From: a virus
IMG/VR virus record: IMGVR_UViG_3300009124_000039
Span: 1-37,766 of that record
Length of the DNA: 37,766 bases
Strand: one strand, 5' to 3'
Shown here: piece after piece, positions 311 to 7,471 of the stretch
Layout: every line of letters starts with the position of its first letter
Position numbering within the stretch: position 1 is the first letter of the stretch
The notes under the pieces: generated by a model
Database searches by the model: none
What the model saw: only the letters and a program-made list of their open reading frames with translations
Told to the model about the DNA's origin: nothing
Program-made: the position numbers and the translations under genes

Positions 311-477
311 ACGTCATCACGACCCTGCTCCTGTTCGAGAGCGCGCATAAGCACCTGACGAAAGCCGTGCTCAAAGAAGAACGCGTAAAGCTCTTTCGAC
401 ATGTCCACGCTCAGCGTAGCAGAGCCATCCTCGTGCTCAGTGATCTCGATTACCTTTACCTCGTTAGACGTCGTCAT
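307..477 (-). CDS. small conserved-looking phage protein (56 aa) after the small terminase
   Basis: An ATG at 475-477 lies inside the 3' end of the small terminase gene (14-nt overlap) and opens a 56-codon frame ending in TGA at 307-309. The product has an acidic, beta-rich first half (about residues 6-25, with repeated Val/Ile/Glu) and a helical, hydrophobic second half (about 28-50). This looks like a small globular protein and not a random frame. Its place between terS and, across the contig ends, terL suggests a packaging or late accessory role, but that is inference. I do not recognise a named family. Confidence 0.65.
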   Translation of the reverse strand: MTTSNEVKVIEITEHEDGSATLSVDMSKELYAFFFEHGFRQVLMRALEQEQGRDDV

Positions 478-907
478 CGTCTACCTCTACCGCTTCACCG
501 TCGATCACGTCGCCAAGTAACGCCGCAGCCTGAGCGTGCAAGTCGTTGACGCTGATGTTGATCGCCACGTCACGTTGTCTCGTGTCGTACTGCGCGTTCA
601 GCTTGGACGCCATCCACTTGTCCGTATCCACTTGCAAGCGCGCTACGTTGACCATCGACGGATCAGTTGTCTGCGCCGTATCGACTGCACGCTCGGCGTA
701 ATAGTGTCCAGCCTCTAGCTGTGCAGTCGCGTAACGATCACGTCGACCGGCTTTAGCGTCCAACCACTTCGCCCACAGCTTGTACCCGATGTTCTGCTCC
801 TTCATGATGTTACGCACGCTCTTGCCCTGCGCTATCTGCTCAAACAGCTCATCCTCACCGACCGCTTCTAACGCTGCGATCTTTGTCTTGCCTACTTCAC
901 CGCCCAT
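464..907 (-). CDS. terS: terminase small subunit (Sf6 gp1-like)
   Basis: Small terminases bind phage DNA and present it to the large terminase motor for packaging. The 147-aa length is typical. Residues about 15-50 form a helix-turn-helix of the 'GKSVRNIMKEQNIGYKLWAKWL' kind (shown here only as a motif type). Residues about 75-105 carry the Sf6-type segment 'VARLQVDTDKWMASKLNAQY', matching the family pattern of a helix followed by K-W-x-x-S-K. The C-terminus is very acidic (about seven Asp/Glu before the end). It overlaps the DUF6378 gene upstream by 11 nt and the 56-aa gene downstream. The large terminase is at the other end of the contig on the same strand, so the two would be near neighbours in a circular map. 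Confidence 0.75.
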   Translation of the reverse strand: MGGEVGKTKIAALEAVGEDELFEQIAQGKSVRNIMKEQNIGYKLWAKWLDAKAGRRDRYATAQLEAGHYYAERAVDTAQTTDPSMVNVARLQVDTDKWMASKLNAQYDTRQRDVAINISVNDLHAQAAALLGDVIDGEAVEVDDDDV

Positions 908-1169
908 CGCTCACAATTTCTCCTGTTAATGCTGCATAGCCGCAGATGTCGACCCAGTGATCCTGTTTCCGCGGCGACGTCTTACTGCGTGCTATCTTTA
1001 GCAGTATCATCATGTTGGCCACGTCCACTACTGTGAAGTCGTGATCCAGATAGGACGACCACAACGCTGCGATCGTCTCAAAGTTATCCTTTGCGTCTCC
1101 GTAATCCTTGTTGCGATCCCCACTGATCACGCCCTCTGCTATCGCCAGTATTTCTTCTCTCGTTACCAT
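897..1169 (-). CDS. DUF6378-type phage protein
   Basis: This 90-aa protein has the layout I associate with DUF6378: 'REEILAIAEGVISGDRNKDYG' near the N-terminus, then 'DNFETIAALWSSYL', then 'DVANMMILLKIARSK' and a closing 'WVDICGYAAL'. The family is common in tailed phages and has no established biochemical role; the paired helices resemble all-alpha nucleotide pyrophosphohydrolases, but no metal-binding motif is clear. It starts inside the end of the 197-aa gene (7-nt overlap) and its end overlaps terS, so it is translated as part of the same operon. Confidence 0.7.
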   Translation of the reverse strand: MVTREEILAIAEGVISGDRNKDYGDAKDNFETIAALWSSYLDHDFTVVDVANMMILLKIARSKTSPRKQDHWVDICGYAALTGEIVSDGR

Positions 1170-1756
1170 GGTATTTCATCTCCACCTAAATCCCAGTTGA
1201 TGCGATCGTCTCCATCACGCACCATCCGCGTTACCTTTGCATTCGGAAACGCATTGAACGCATTGTTCAGGAAAGTCTCCGTCCAGTCAAACCTGATCAC
1301 GCGCGCAGCATCCTCGAAGCTGTACACGATCCAGCTTGGATGCTTCTTCCGTAGCTCCGCCCACCCGTGCAATGCAAAGCACACGATCACGTCATCGATC
1401 TCCACGCAGTACGCGTGCGGCGGCAGCGGCTTGTGCCCTGCATCCTCCGCAGCCTTCTCCAAGACGTCCCACGCCCTCATGAGCTGCGTTGCGATCTGAT
1501 TAGTGCCAACCACGTCATCCGCATCCACACGCTCTCTGAGCGCCTCGTATGCCGCCTCGAAGCGTCCAGCTAAATCCGGAGACACTAAGTCTGGCAACGT
1601 GTCACCCCACTTCGCAATCTTCTCTCTTGCCTTTTCATCGAGCGGACGCAACTGGCCCCATACGCCAGCACTGATCTTAGTCCCCTCACTATTCAACGTC
1701 CCTCTCGCCTTCGCTTCCCTATGGTTAGCCAGCGAACGCTTCCCTTTCTTTGCCAT
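1163..1756 (-). CDS. 197-aa phage protein with an SSB-like C-terminal tip
   Basis: I do not recognise the fold. The N-terminus (1-20) is basic (MAKKGKRSLANHREAK). The middle (about 45-105) is helical and charged, and the second half is a mixed alpha/beta domain with conserved-looking aromatic residues. The last residues, 'GGDEIPW', resemble the acidic-plus-hydrophobic tip used by single-stranded DNA-binding proteins to recruit partners. A purine-rich Shine-Dalgarno (GGAGGAG) lies upstream of the ATG. It is the first gene after the 156-bp repeat region, so its translation and perhaps transcription depend on that element. A replication-linked role is inferred from position only. Confidence 0.6.
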   Translation of the reverse strand: MAKKGKRSLANHREAKARGTLNSEGTKISAGVWGQLRPLDEKAREKIAKWGDTLPDLVSPDLAGRFEAAYEALRERVDADDVVGTNQIATQLMRAWDVLEKAAEDAGHKPLPPHAYCVEIDDVIVCFALHGWAELRKKHPSWIVYSFEDAARVIRFDWTETFLNNAFNAFPNAKVTRMVRDGDDRINWDLGGDEIPW

Positions 1757-1912
1757 GCTACAACTCCTCCACTTTCCTCAGTTACTTTCACCTCAGTCCG
1801 AAGTTACCTCCTCAGTTACGTATATATACGTAATAACTGAGGAGGAACTAAAATCGGCCTCTTTTACCTCACTTCCTCACTCCACCTCAGTTCAACTGAG
1901 GAAACTGAGGAA
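1757..1912. repeat. CCTCAGT repeat cluster with two large palindromes (possible origin or operator)
   Basis: Forward copies of CCTCAGT(T) start at 1776, 1791, 1810 and 1885. Inverted copies end at 1842, 1901 and 1910. Degenerate copies CCTCACTT and CCTCACTC start at 1867 and 1875. Two form hairpins: 12-bp arms at 1807-1818 and 1834-1845, with an internal 18-bp perfect palindrome TTACGTATATATACGTAA at 1816-1833; and a second near-perfect palindrome CCTCAGTTCAACTGAGG at 1885-1901. The AT-rich centre and clustered motifs fit a replication origin or an operator, inside an otherwise gapless operon. On the minus strand the same motif reads ACTGAGG and partly supplies the Shine-Dalgarno for the next gene. 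No factor-independent terminator T-tract is seen. Confidence 0.8.
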
Positions 1913-2173
1913 CTAATGCAAAGTGCCATTCGACCCCTCTCTAAGCAACGCAATATTCAGCGCCTTGGCCATCGTCACGTCGGTGTCGATGCCTTGCAGC
2001 ACCTCCATCACGAATGCCACGTCATCACCCGCCGATGACATCATTGGCATCTCATCTGCGCACCACTCGATCACGGCGCCTCCGATTTCCTCGTCCCATA
2101 CGATGCGCCCAAGCTCCAGCTTGTTTTCGTCTTCTTCTATTTCACGTATTGGCGTTGGTAGTGTCATTGTCAC
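1913..2173 (-). CDS. small acidic protein of unknown function (86 aa)
   Basis: The ATG at 2171-2173 overlaps the TGA of the preceding nuclease-like gene (ATGA), so translation is probably coupled. The product is acidic, with runs such as 'REIEEDENKLELG' near the N-terminus and a helical C-terminal half. I recognise no family. It is the last gene before the 1757-1912 repeat region. Acidic proteins of this size in phage early regions are often host-takeover or DNA-mimic proteins, but nothing specific supports that here. Confidence 0.6.
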   Translation of the reverse strand: MTMTLPTPIREIEEDENKLELGRIVWDEEIGGAVIEWCADEMPMMSSAGDDVAFVMEVLQGIDTDVTMAKALNIALLREGSNGTLH

Positions 2174-2997: not shown

Positions 2998-3233
2998 AGT
3001 TCCCTCTCCAATTGTCTGAGCCTGAACGCCAGCTCACGTAGCTGCTCGCTCATGCCCTTTTCTATGTGCGCGCTAAACAGCGGCCGGCGATCCTTTGCGC
3101 TGTACGCCTGCCCCGCTATGAGCGCGAACGTCTTTGCGTCCGGCGCAATCTCGAATGTTATGTGCGCCACCTCAAAGTGCTCGCGCGGTGCGTCGGGATG
3201 ACGCTGCTTAGATTTCTGGCTGTGACGGCTCAT
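2994..3233 (-). CDS. small basic protein of unknown function (79 aa)
   Basis: The start chosen is the ATG at 3231-3233, which overlaps the TGA of the primase-helicase gene (ATGA). A longer frame to 3278 lies wholly inside that gene and is not needed. The N-terminus is basic (Ser/Arg/His/Lys-rich), the middle is a likely beta segment ('FEVAHITFEIAP'), and the C-terminus is a charged helix ending in Glu-Leu. Function unknown; co-translated with the primase-helicase. Confidence 0.6.
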   Translation of the reverse strand: MSRHSQKSKQRHPDAPREHFEVAHITFEIAPDAKTFALIAGQAYSAKDRRPLFSAHIEKGMSEQLRELAFRLRQLEREL

Positions 3234-5425
3234 CACCCCACCTCCGACGCGTTGATCCATTCCCCGACGACGACGCACTGCACGTCCCGCCCCTGCCGTT
3301 TATCTGGCCACTCTTCGACCTTCAGCACGTTTGTCTCGATCCACTTCTTCAGGATTGCCTTAGCGCGCGCCTTCTCGTGCTGCTTGTCCAAGTCTAGGTC
3401 GAGCTGCACGGCCACCGCATTGCCCGCCCACGACTTAGCGCGTGCATCTGCGCGCATTGGCTCGCCCCGTTCCGCGGCCGCCCCGATGAGACGCTGCACG
3501 GCCTGCGCGTCTTTTGCGCTGACCCCGTCGAACAAGTCTGGCATTTTGAACGGCACGCAGACGCCCACGTATTCGCCGTTTGGCAGCTCCACCCCGTGCA
3601 TACGCCGGTACAGCGCCTTTGCGGCCGGCGGTGCGAGGTTTGCCTTTCCGTCGTCTACGCGGAATATGCCGAGCGCCTCATGCTCCGACACGCCCAGCTT
3701 CATCGCGTCTTCTTGGCTAACACGATTGATGACGCGTGCTGCGCGAGCTGCACCGATCAACGATCCGGCGCCGCGGACGCTGTCGACCGTTGCGTCTTCG
3801 CCGTTTGTCTTGCGAATGTGGTGCGTTAGCACGATCGCGGCGTCGGTCTTGTCTGCGACGTAGCGCGCCGCTGCGACCGCCGCGTTCATTGCGACGTTAT
3901 CGTTTTCGTTGATGTCGTTGAAACCTACCCACGGGTCTATGATGACCAGCCCAATGTTGTGGCGTTTTATCTTTTCGATCATGTACTCTAGCATATCTTC
4001 GTCCGTTACGATGCCGTCACGCGTTTGCTTTGCGAACTGGATCATGAGATCACGGCCAGCGTCGAGGAATAGCTTGCCGCGTATGTCCTCCGGCTTGATG
4101 CCATAGTGGATGAAGATGGCCGCGAAACGTCGCTGCATTTCCTCGTATGGGTCTTCGCCGTTGATGACCCACACGTTGCACTGCTCGCGAACCGGCTCCT
4201 CCAGTAGCGGCTTGCCCAGCGCAATGGCGCACGATTCTACTTGCTGCATGGATGTCTTACCCACGCCGCCCATCGACGCCAGCACGCTCACGTATCCGCG
4301 GATGTAGTGCGTGCCATATATCCAACGCCGCTTTGGTATAAGCGACGGGTCGATAACCTCGAACTCAGTTGGCCACTGGCGCTCGCTCTCGAGCTGTATC
4401 TGCTTGGCCTCTTCATAAAGTTGCGCGGTTGCTAGTGCTTCACGCAATTTTGTTTCGCCGGCCTCACGTAGGTAGTCGTTTGCGTCCTTGACGTTTTCGG
4501 CGTCTAGCTGGTCGAAGCGTATGACGTGCACCTGCGTGCTTCCGTCGCCCTTCAGGACGTCGACGCACTTTTCGATGTCGAGGTCAGGGTCTGCGCATAT
4601 CGTCACGTCTGAGGCGCGTGGAGGCGTGTACGTCGCCATTCCCGCTTTGCCGAAGGTGCAGATCACCGCCGCATCGTCTTTGGCTGCCTGCCGTATGCTG
4701 AGCGCGTCCTCCGGCCCCTCGACAATGACGATTGGCTTTTCGCCTTGCGTTTCTCCGATCTGCATTACGTTGCCGGCAATCACGCCGCGCGAATATTTCG
4801 CAATGCCGTTGACCTCGCGCTTCTTTCCCTCTGGCGTTATGAGAACGCTCTGGATGCCCTCGATTTCGCCCTCCGGTGTTGTCGCTGCGAAGATAATCGC
4901 GGGCCCGTCATAGACGTTGGGGCTAAACTTTGCCACGTTGACCGCTGCGCTCGCTCTGAGGCCGCGTGAATTGAGGTAAAGAAGCGCAGGCTTTACCGCG
5001 TCTAGGTTTTCTCTTGTGATCGGTACGGCGCGCTCCCACGCCTCCTGCGCCTTCTTGATTTTGTCTCTGCGGCTTTCCTCGTCACGTATGATTAAGTCTT
5101 TACTGGCCAGACGTGCAACCAAACGCTCCAGTTCACTTGGTATATACGGTTGTATATCCGAGTTCTCGAGTTGCTTTGGGTTTTCGCCGCCGCGCTTAAA
5201 GCCGCTGCCAATTGTTGACTTTATCTCGAAATCCTTGAGCCCGATCTGACGCGCCGCCGCGTGCAGTTGCAGGATGGCCGCGTCAATGTTGGCCGGCGAC
5301 ATGTGTGCGTGCCTGCCGATTGAAAATGCTGCTTTGTTTAAGTTTTCGTTTCTGCCGCCCTTCATGGACGCAATGACGTCGCCTACTGCTCCATCGACGA
5401 CCTTATTAAAATATGCTTCTGACAT
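3233..5425 (-). CDS. primase-helicase: Toprim domain fused to RepA-type AAA ATPase
   Basis: This 730-aa protein probably unwinds DNA and lays primers at the phage fork. Residues 1-130 are a helical N-terminal domain. Residues about 230-325 are a Toprim domain, with the acidic motif 'VEGPEDALSI' (235-244), 'CADPDLD' (277-283) and 'DANDYL' (314-319). Residues about 365-600 are a RepA/AAA_25 ATPase: Walker A 'ASMGGVGKTS' (383-392), Walker B 'LVIIDPW' (493-499), 'LTHHIRK' (533-539) and 'RGAGSLIGAAR' (551-561). The C-terminal 130 residues look like a linker plus a winged-helix-like domain. No N-terminal zinc-binding Cys cluster is present, unlike T7 gp4. No DNA polymerase is encoded in the window, so it presumably recruits host enzymes. 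Confidence 0.9.
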   Translation of the reverse strand: MSEAYFNKVVDGAVGDVIASMKGGRNENLNKAAFSIGRHAHMSPANIDAAILQLHAAARQIGLKDFEIKSTIGSGFKRGGENPKQLENSDIQPYIPSELERLVARLASKDLIIRDEESRRDKIKKAQEAWERAVPITRENLDAVKPALLYLNSRGLRASAAVNVAKFSPNVYDGPAIIFAATTPEGEIEGIQSVLITPEGKKREVNGIAKYSRGVIAGNVMQIGETQGEKPIVIVEGPEDALSIRQAAKDDAAVICTFGKAGMATYTPPRASDVTICADPDLDIEKCVDVLKGDGSTQVHVIRFDQLDAENVKDANDYLREAGETKLREALATAQLYEEAKQIQLESERQWPTEFEVIDPSLIPKRRWIYGTHYIRGYVSVLASMGGVGKTSMQQVESCAIALGKPLLEEPVREQCNVWVINGEDPYEEMQRRFAAIFIHYGIKPEDIRGKLFLDAGRDLMIQFAKQTRDGIVTDEDMLEYMIEKIKRHNIGLVIIDPWVGFNDINENDNVAMNAAVAAARYVADKTDAAIVLTHHIRKTNGEDATVDSVRGAGSLIGAARAARVINRVSQEDAMKLGVSEHEALGIFRVDDGKANLAPPAAKALYRRMHGVELPNGEYVGVCVPFKMPDLFDGVSAKDAQAVQRLIGAAAERGEPMRADARAKSWAGNAVAVQLDLDLDKQHEKARAKAILKKWIETNVLKVEEWPDKRQGRDVQCVVVGEWINASEVG

Positions 5426-6874: not shown

Positions 6875-7320
6875 TAGTTCTTTCCCTTTCCGTAAAGCGC
6901 AATCAGAAGCGCCTCCGCACGGTGTTCGTCCTTCTTGCGTTTAAGCTGGCCAGCTAAATTAGGGAACCATTGCTGCGCCAGCCTACGTGCGGCGTCCTTG
7001 TCGCGCGGCAGGTTGAGAGAACGCTTCCAATTGTTAGGCGTCACTAGCGTATATGGCGAGCGCGATAGCGCGCACGTCGTCACGATCTGACCGAACCCGT
7101 ATCCAAGTTTAAATGTCGATGACACGCCCTGCTTTGGCATGGCCTGCTGTTTCTCGATGTAAATGTGATCCACGCGCTCGACCGACGTTAATATGTCCAT
7201 CAGTGCTACTACGTCGACGCCGCCCTCATCGTATGTTGGTAAGTCGTGAACCTCTGCCCAATCGTCGCCGACGATGGCAACGCCGCCTGTACGGTATCCG
7301 CAATCAACTCCGATGATCAT
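6874..7320 (-). CDS. RuvC-like Holliday junction resolvase
   Basis: The RNase H-fold signature is clear: 'MIIGVDCGYRTGG' at the start with catalytic D6, 'HIYIEKQQ' with E56, and 'KKDEHRAEALLIALYG' near the C-terminus with D131 and E136. It should resolve branched DNA before or during packaging. The start at 7320 was chosen because it begins directly with the core strand; an in-frame ATG at 7332 adds four residues. The 5' end overlaps the ribbon-helix-helix gene by 17 nt. Length 148 aa is close to the phage RuvC-like norm. Confidence 0.85.
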   Translation of the reverse strand: MIIGVDCGYRTGGVAIVGDDWAEVHDLPTYDEGGVDVVALMDILTSVERVDHIYIEKQQAMPKQGVSSTFKLGYGFGQIVTTCALSRSPYTLVTPNNWKRSLNLPRDKDAARRLAQQWFPNLAGQLKRKKDEHRAEALLIALYGKGKN

Positions 7321-7471
7321 CAGACACCTCAAAGCCTTGTCTCTGCAAGTACTCCTTTACAGCGTCCTCGACTATCTTCGACATGGATAGCCGTGTCATA
7401 GCGCTGTAATTGTGCAGCGCGTCGTACACATGCTCACGAATGCGTGGGCCGATTTGTTTAAGTTTATACAT
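7304..7471 (-). CDS. ribbon-helix-helix DNA-binding protein (55 aa)
   Basis: The protein reads MYKLKQIGPRIREHVYDALH, then a loop, then a helix pair ending 'MSKIVEDAVKEYLQRQG'. This matches Arc/CopG-type ribbon-helix-helix repressors, which bind DNA as dimers through an N-terminal strand (here KLKQIGPR). It is the promoter-proximal gene of the replication operon, with Shine-Dalgarno GGAGGAT 3-5 nt before the ATG, and it lies about 16 nt after the predicted start of transcription. Autoregulation of that operon, or control of the divergent lysis genes, is a natural guess but not shown. Confidence 0.75.
   Translation of the reverse strand: MYKLKQIGPRIREHVYDALHNYSAMTRLSMSKIVEDAVKEYLQRQGFEVSDDHRS

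Follow-up and report, generated by a model that had tools for sequence, protein, structure and literature searches.

The phage contig and its repeat element

The window analyzed here is the whole 37,766-nucleotide stretch of the IMG/VR virus record IMGVR_UViG_3300009124_000039. The contig is that of a podovirus-like phage, with an Sf6-type small terminase subunit (TerS), a terminase large subunit, portal and coat families and a tail spike, and it also encodes an exonuclease, a Holliday resolvase and a TOPRIM/AAA_25 primase-helicase. Its first nucleotides (1-31) resemble a remnant of the Nextera transposase adapter, which makes an assembly artefact at the left end probable. The element under study fills a 156-bp gap between an 86-aa ORF (1913-2173, minus strand) and the 197-aa ORF listed in Table 1. 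As described in the initial annotation, the genes neighboring the element overlap or abut. One of the readings offered there was control of terS expression; this gene is not adjacent to the element but comes third in the downstream direction. A DUF6378 protein is encoded between it and the 197-aa gene (897-1169), for which the matched PHROGs families are labelled phosphofructokinase. The primase-helicase gene is located 1.3 kb upstream of the array in the operon, with small genes in between, and its product matched only AAA_25, Toprim_3 and DUF7146 in Pfam. The modeled 197-aa protein is helical (pLDDT 68), and structure comparison of this model gave no clear fold match. A search of annotated phages returned two remote matches for the primase-helicase and none for the 197-aa protein, with no close relative of either. 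Farther along the contig, 7304-7471 encodes an Arc-like ribbon-helix-helix (RHH) protein with an N-terminal strand conserved across clades; its own target is probably constant and was not found.

The element contains four exact copies of CCTCAGT, three of ACTGAGG and two of CCTCACT, which amount to nine TGAGG cores. When read as extended units, these are seven copies of ACTGAGG and two of AGTGAGG, placed in both orientations around an 18-bp TA palindrome that is also present in the elements of most relatives. The hairpin arms of the central dyad (1807-1818 and 1834-1845) are 12 bp long and 100% complementary, and each arm carries an extra half copy, GGAGG, the variable base of which switches as well. 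The commonest 7-mer occurs seven times in the 156 bp; over 2,000 dinucleotide shuffles the corresponding count averaged 1.9 and did not rise above 4. Elsewhere in the 37.8 kb only four more copies of ACTGAGG are found, and no second cluster of this motif was seen in the window. A search of the element region identified no promoter-like site and one weak terminator-like site on the other strand. The coordinates, motif copies, hairpin and both palindromes reported initially for this repeat-dense element were all confirmed. The repeats, first described as CCTCAGT-like, are real; however, the conserved unit is the TGNGG core and not the whole CCTCAGT. A GC-skew check for origin activity, which had been suggested with the annotation, was uninformative when run on the window and gave no origin signal.

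Table 1 Positions of the iteron element, its parts and the proteins considered as its readers (window coordinates)
Feature	Position	Strand	Remark
Terminase small subunit (Sf6-type), tested as rival reader	464..907	-	no motif-tracking column
197-aa protein, no clear fold match, beside array in relatives	1163..1756	-	not the reader
Iteron array, proposed replication origin (whole element)	1757..1912	.	nine TGAGG cores and central palindrome
Iteron core TGAGG (ACTGAGGAA)	1776..1780	-	
Iteron core TGAGG (ACTGAGGTG)	1791..1795	-	
Central dyad, 12-bp inverted arms CCTCCTCAGTTA/TAACTGAGGAGG	1807..1845	.	full core per arm (1810-1814, -; 1838-1842, +)
18-bp TA-rich palindrome TTACGTATATATACGTAA, candidate unwinding centre	1816..1833	.	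AT-rich region within iterons
Iteron core TGAGG (ACTGAGGAG)	1838..1842	+	
Iteron core TGAGG (AGTGAGGTA)	1867..1871	-	unpaired in RNA model
Iteron core TGAGG (AGTGAGGAA)	1875..1879	-	unpaired in RNA model
17-bp palindrome CCTCAGTTcAACTGAGG	1885..1901		
Iteron core TGAGG (ACTGAGGTG)	1885..1889	-	17-bp palindrome, left arm
Iteron core TGAGG (ACTGAGGAA)	1897..1901	+	17-bp palindrome, right arm
Iteron core TGAGG (ACTGAGGAA)	1906..1910	+	
730-aa primase-helicase (Toprim_3 and AAA_25), proposed origin-binding initiator	3233..5425	-	Pfam and PHROG matches, covariation
C-terminal domain, residues 612-730, predicted winged helix	3236..3592	-	AlphaFold mean pLDDT 74
Wing tip D708-K-R-Q711-G-R713, proposed reader of variable core base	3287..3304	-	
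R662, proposed reader of base before core	3440..3442	-	

Concerted switching of the array in related phages

Relatives were collected by searching IMG/VR with the 197-aa neighbor, which gave 72 loci, and by searching with the central palindrome and loosely matched arms, which gave 65 matches. All of the latter except a chance hit (L120) lie beside the same neighbor genes. In well over 100 related phage contigs the array was found at the same place, with few exceptions. The core is TGAGG, TGTGG, TGCGG or TGGGG (A-, T-, C- and G-type below), with one type dominant in each phage, and the copies change together. Including the preceding base, the units observed were CTGAGG, CTGTGG, CTGCGG, GTGAGG, GTGCGG and GTGGGG. 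The extra GGNGG half copies of the relatives switch as well, and in one clade (L033-36) the core is degenerate. Where copies are scarce or missing, as in a few contigs (L166, L188, L196-198), the automated array finder selected the wrong cluster. In one contig (L029 upstream of position 5001, also sampled as L121) the left half-array is gone, with the break inside the central palindrome, reflecting either a deletion or an assembly error.

Pairwise alignments illustrate how selective this change is for the cores. The C-type phage L092 and the T-type phage L086 differ in core type, yet their primase-helicases, TerS proteins and 197-aa proteins are 96-97% identical. All nine marked core positions differ between the two, each to the base of the other class, compared with 40 of 191 other alignment columns (end gaps counted). 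Between the A-type window and the T-type L015, 12 of 12 marked positions have changed, 10 of them to the T-class base, against 33 of 182 other columns. In a same-type control, L027 versus the window, none of 11 marked positions has changed while 43 of 185 other columns have. Loss of the motif from relatives had been named at the outset as evidence that would count against the element. The exact motif is indeed often gone, but an array of concertedly changed motifs is found instead.

Primase-helicase residues that follow the switching base

In order to identify the protein that reads the array, 2,121 columns in 11 neighboring proteins were scored for following the switching base. The best tracker was residue 711 of the primase-helicase, which is Gln in 55/55 phages with TGAGG, Asp in 17/17 with TGCGG, Ala (15) or His (3) with TGTGG, and Gln (3) with TGGGG. 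The last group, the clade L070-72, keeps Q711, and within its wing the only change is D708A, which is unique to this clade. On a tree built from the first 600 residues, residue 711 again heads the 2,121 columns, sharing its changes with the base on four of seven branches; columns of two other proteins tie this count, although they follow the base much less purely. When the T- and C-type sister groups are compared, the primase-helicase shows 13 fixed differences, which are confined to residues 646-715 of 728, whereas the 197-aa protein and the 192-aa protein show one each and TerS none. The C-terminal domain also differs in same-type contrasts, but never at 711; the domain therefore varies in any case.

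A second residue follows the base preceding the core. Position 662 is Arg with C-TGNGG in 69/69 cases and Gln with G-TGNGG in 21/21, while R662 occurs with mixed C and G preceding bases in L199 and L203, and 2 of the 9 copies in the window itself have such a mismatch. Around 711, K709 and R710 are invariant and R713 is nearly always present; one clade with K713 has a degenerate core. Pairings such as Gln with A and Lys with G are chemically sensible from what is known of protein-DNA contacts in general.

Additional clades were reached by another route after the 711 rule had been stated. Among their members, L189, L190, L192, L194, L201, L204, L205 and L207 combine H711 with TGTGG. L212-L215 and an Opitutae contig (L217) combine D711 with TGCGG, and a contig from Verrucomicrobiota (L218) has K711, a residue new to the set, together with ten copies of TGGGG. 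Every one of these contigs has Q662 and a G preceding the core, so that both residue rules are obeyed. Most of these contigs retain the 197-aa and TerS genes, which indicates new clades of a related lineage and not unrelated phages. A permutation at the level of 13 clades found the mapping pure in 10 of 540,540 label arrangements (p = 1.9e-5), a value that becomes borderline once the choice of 711 from 2,121 columns is counted and to which some of the clades that helped define the rule contribute. Because 711 was preselected and the rule was defined in part on these clades, the assignment of the reader rests on the new clades and the contrasts rather than on the permutation.

Among the other proteins screened, TerS, the DUF6378 protein, the SSB-like 192-aa protein, the exonuclease, the resolvase, PDDEXK_14 and the 86-aa and 94-aa proteins have no column comparable to 711. 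Columns that reach full purity on few sequences, such as column 25 of the RHH protein, were discounted as small samples. The 197-aa protein was rejected as the reader, with one to three fixed differences per type-changing contrast and none tracking the motif. The likely binder named in the initial annotation was the RHH or the 197-aa protein; the evidence points instead to the primase-helicase.

Residues 662 and 711 both fall in the C-terminal domain, which is predicted to be a winged helix. Its AlphaFold model consists of three helices and a beta hairpin, with residues 708-713 forming the hairpin loop. Structural matches were to winged helices (RecQ/BLM, MecI and the FtsK gamma domain) with Z up to 7.7; as the winged helix is a common fold, these matches support the fold class and no closer kinship. 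P4 alpha did not appear among the top structural matches, an uninformative result for a comparison covering top matches only. No Pfam match to the domain was obtained at E ≤ 1, nor any sequence match to a solved structure.

Arrays beside homologous genes in prophages

Behind the homologous gene of alphaproteobacterial prophages and related virus contigs there is often, within about 60 bp of the stop codon, a similar array that includes a central palindrome. Of 116 distant loci, 48 contained five or more copies of one TGNNG in the 230 bp past the stop, compared with 0.5% of mononucleotide shuffles. In distant homologs such as L218 and L223 the array lies directly downstream of the gene. A genome scan using the C-terminal domain alone as query returned nothing, while a longer query gave matches. 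Across the distant loci, wings with RK or HK accompany TGGCG at several unrelated loci, RH accompanies TGACG and RE accompanies TGCGG; this pairing is descriptive, the wing alignment being loose and exceptions being present. No array is visible behind the gene in a primase-helicase subfamily with the wing DPVRRELAVFVRAA (L280-L300 and similar), and the homolog of a Rhizobium phage showed no obvious array in the stretch searched. Two further loci are of separate interest. About 400 bp past the primase-helicase stop, Microvirga aerilata (L228) carries an unusually long array of several TGGGGCA modules, each with a palindrome, and a Rhodoblastus prophage (L252) has kept a TGCGG array beside a primase-helicase gene that is apparently frameshifted.

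Proposed origin function and alternative explanations

We conclude that the element is very probably the replication origin of the phage, with its iterons bound by the winged-helix C-terminal domain of the phage's own TOPRIM/AAA_25 primase-helicase. The nine TGAGG iterons, direct and inverted on either side of the TA-rich palindrome, would be the sites bound by this domain. The wing tip (K709, R710, Q711 and R713) would read the core, with 711, helped by 708, setting the variable base, and residue 662, which precedes the domain's second helix, would set the base preceding the core; R710 and R713 are predicted to lie on the guanines. Bound copies could then assemble on the two inverted halves and the TA centre would open, after which the same polypeptide may load as a helicase and prime synthesis. 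DNA binding, melting, helicase loading and priming are proposed here on the model of SaPI Rep, Cch2 and P4 alpha, and the covariation would by itself identify the reader of the array, not a start of replication at that place. Several observations run against an origin read in this way. Q711 is retained in the G-type clade L070-72, where residue 708 has to be invoked to account for the base; R662 goes with mixed preceding bases in some phages, the L033-36 core is degenerate, GC skew shows no origin signal, and in the window clade the array is not adjacent to the primase-helicase gene.

That gap, about 1.3 kb of small genes, would also suit an arrangement in which the primase-helicase binds the array for copy-number control, autoregulation or incompatibility and the true origin lies elsewhere. 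In phage P4, iterons are found not only at ori but also at a second site, crr, which is a precedent for binding of this kind. We consider it unlikely, however, since the window lacks a visible second ACTGAGG cluster, distant homologs have the array directly behind the gene as in SaPIs, and the AT-rich dyad at the centre is of the type usual for unwinding elements. Even less likely is a pac or cos site that the terminase recognizes through its small subunit. On the coding strand the array does precede terS by about 850 bp, with terL following terS if the contig is circular, which is the usual place of pac. However, TerS has no fixed difference between the T- and C-type sister groups although all marked cores switch, it offers no tracking column, and in distant prophages it is the primase-helicase gene that the array directly follows. 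A protelomerase or cos-like role for the central palindrome was also considered and set aside, since all copies in the array switch with the primase-helicase.

Of the three readings put forward in the initial annotation, the iteron-bearing replication origin with its AT-rich centre has strong support, and the other two, an operator for the RHH protein and RNA control, are disfavored. An array of short repeats in direct and inverted orientation would fit an RHH repressor of the omega kind, and the RHH gene is present in 22 of 32 records. Nevertheless, the predicted DNA-contacting N-terminal strand of the 55-aa protein, LKQIGPRIR, is the same across A-, T- and C-type phages apart from one I/L exchange. 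Because this contact strand is essentially invariant, the RHH protein cannot explain the switching base, and we regard an operator array as highly improbable. There is equally little to recommend a structured RNA leader controlling the downstream genes, terS among them in the annotation's version. The minus-strand RNA folds 5.65 SD better than shuffles (z = -5.65), but a strong fold is expected of any array with inverted copies, and the window has no Rfam match. Moreover, the two AGTGAGG copies, which are unpaired in the RNA model, switch in concert with the rest, and the switching tracks the wing of a protein domain. The origin bound by the primase-helicase accordingly remains our preferred explanation of the element.

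Significance and comparison with known systems

To our knowledge, the replication origins of most metagenomic phages are not known. In this case sequence alone was enough to propose an origin, the protein that reads it and the residues in contact with it, and a simple rule predicted the repeat from the protein in later clades. More tentatively, with the odds slightly against us, we suggest that the element represents a large family of phage and prophage replicons, undescribed so far, whose TOPRIM/AAA_25 primase-helicase reads its own iteron origin by a small, largely modular winged-helix code. Under this proposal, specificity would drift fast, all origin copies would be rewritten between close relatives, and phages would be split into origin-compatibility groups. 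The code, as part of the same suggestion, would pair residue 711 with the variable base (Gln with A, Asp or Glu with C, Ala or His with T, Lys with G), residue 662 with the preceding base (Arg with C, Gln with G), and the wings RK, RH and RE with TGGCG, TGACG and TGCGG, respectively. No paper describing this TOPRIM/AAA_25 iteron system was found in the open-access literature searched. Iteron origins with self-encoded initiators are known already, as is covariation of initiator and iterons in PLE RepA (PMC8263062) and geminiviruses (PMC12548392). As far as the open literature shows, what is new lies in the enzyme family, in how widely it occurs and in a natural code of two residues that runs through most base combinations. 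The natural matched protein-DNA pairs, which differ at single positions, make recognition and the joint change of an initiator and many sites directly testable. They also raise the question of what drives origin switching, for which rivalry among co-infecting phages, satellites and nucleases that cut origins, Odn being an example (PMC8263062), are candidates. Applied more widely, the rule could help to locate origins in many alphaproteobacterial prophages.

The combination of iterons with an AT-rich region in a phage origin is shared with systems of the lambda O type, in which, however, the O protein is neither helicase nor primase and the origin lies inside the O gene. P4 alpha unites primase, helicase and an origin-binding winged helix in one polypeptide; the enzyme described here may be of comparable build, its domain order and predicted fold being in agreement, with no sequence match of its C-terminal domain to a solved structure. 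The primase and helicase families of the two enzymes differ, and the iterons of P4 ori and crr differ from those of the window. A fused helicase-primase is noted in PMC7145576.

Both SaPI Rep and SCCmec Cch2 use a C-terminal domain to bind iterons located immediately downstream of their own genes (PMC7581432). SaPI Rep resembles the primase-helicase, as proposed here, in being an initiator helicase encoded by a mobile element, with short iterons recognized by its C-terminal domain (PMC7581432). It differs in having a DUF927 or Primase_Cterm/D5-type helicase, usually with a separate primase, whereas here a TOPRIM primase is fused to an AAA_25 helicase, and in an origin placed downstream of its gene rather than 1.3 kb away as in the window. 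Cch2 likewise recognizes short (5-nt) iterons immediately downstream of its gene through its C-terminal domain (PMC7581432), but with a D5-type helicase, three iterons and a separate primase-polymerase. The primase-helicase most likely works like these two initiators but, by its Pfam matches, is not a member of their helicase families. In PLE RepA of Vibrio cholerae, the initiator's DNA-binding domain and the origin iterons covary as exchangeable modules, and the PLE origin is targeted by an origin-directed phage nuclease (PMC8263062). That initiator, however, is of the RepA_N type and not a primase-helicase, its iterons are about 30 bp long, and whole modules are swapped instead of single bases. 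Finally, geminivirus Rep reads iterons of 5-6 nt that differ between close relatives, and amino acid-base pairs have been proposed for it by comparison (PMC12548392 and reference therein), although this rolling-circle Rep of plant ssDNA viruses is an unrelated protein.
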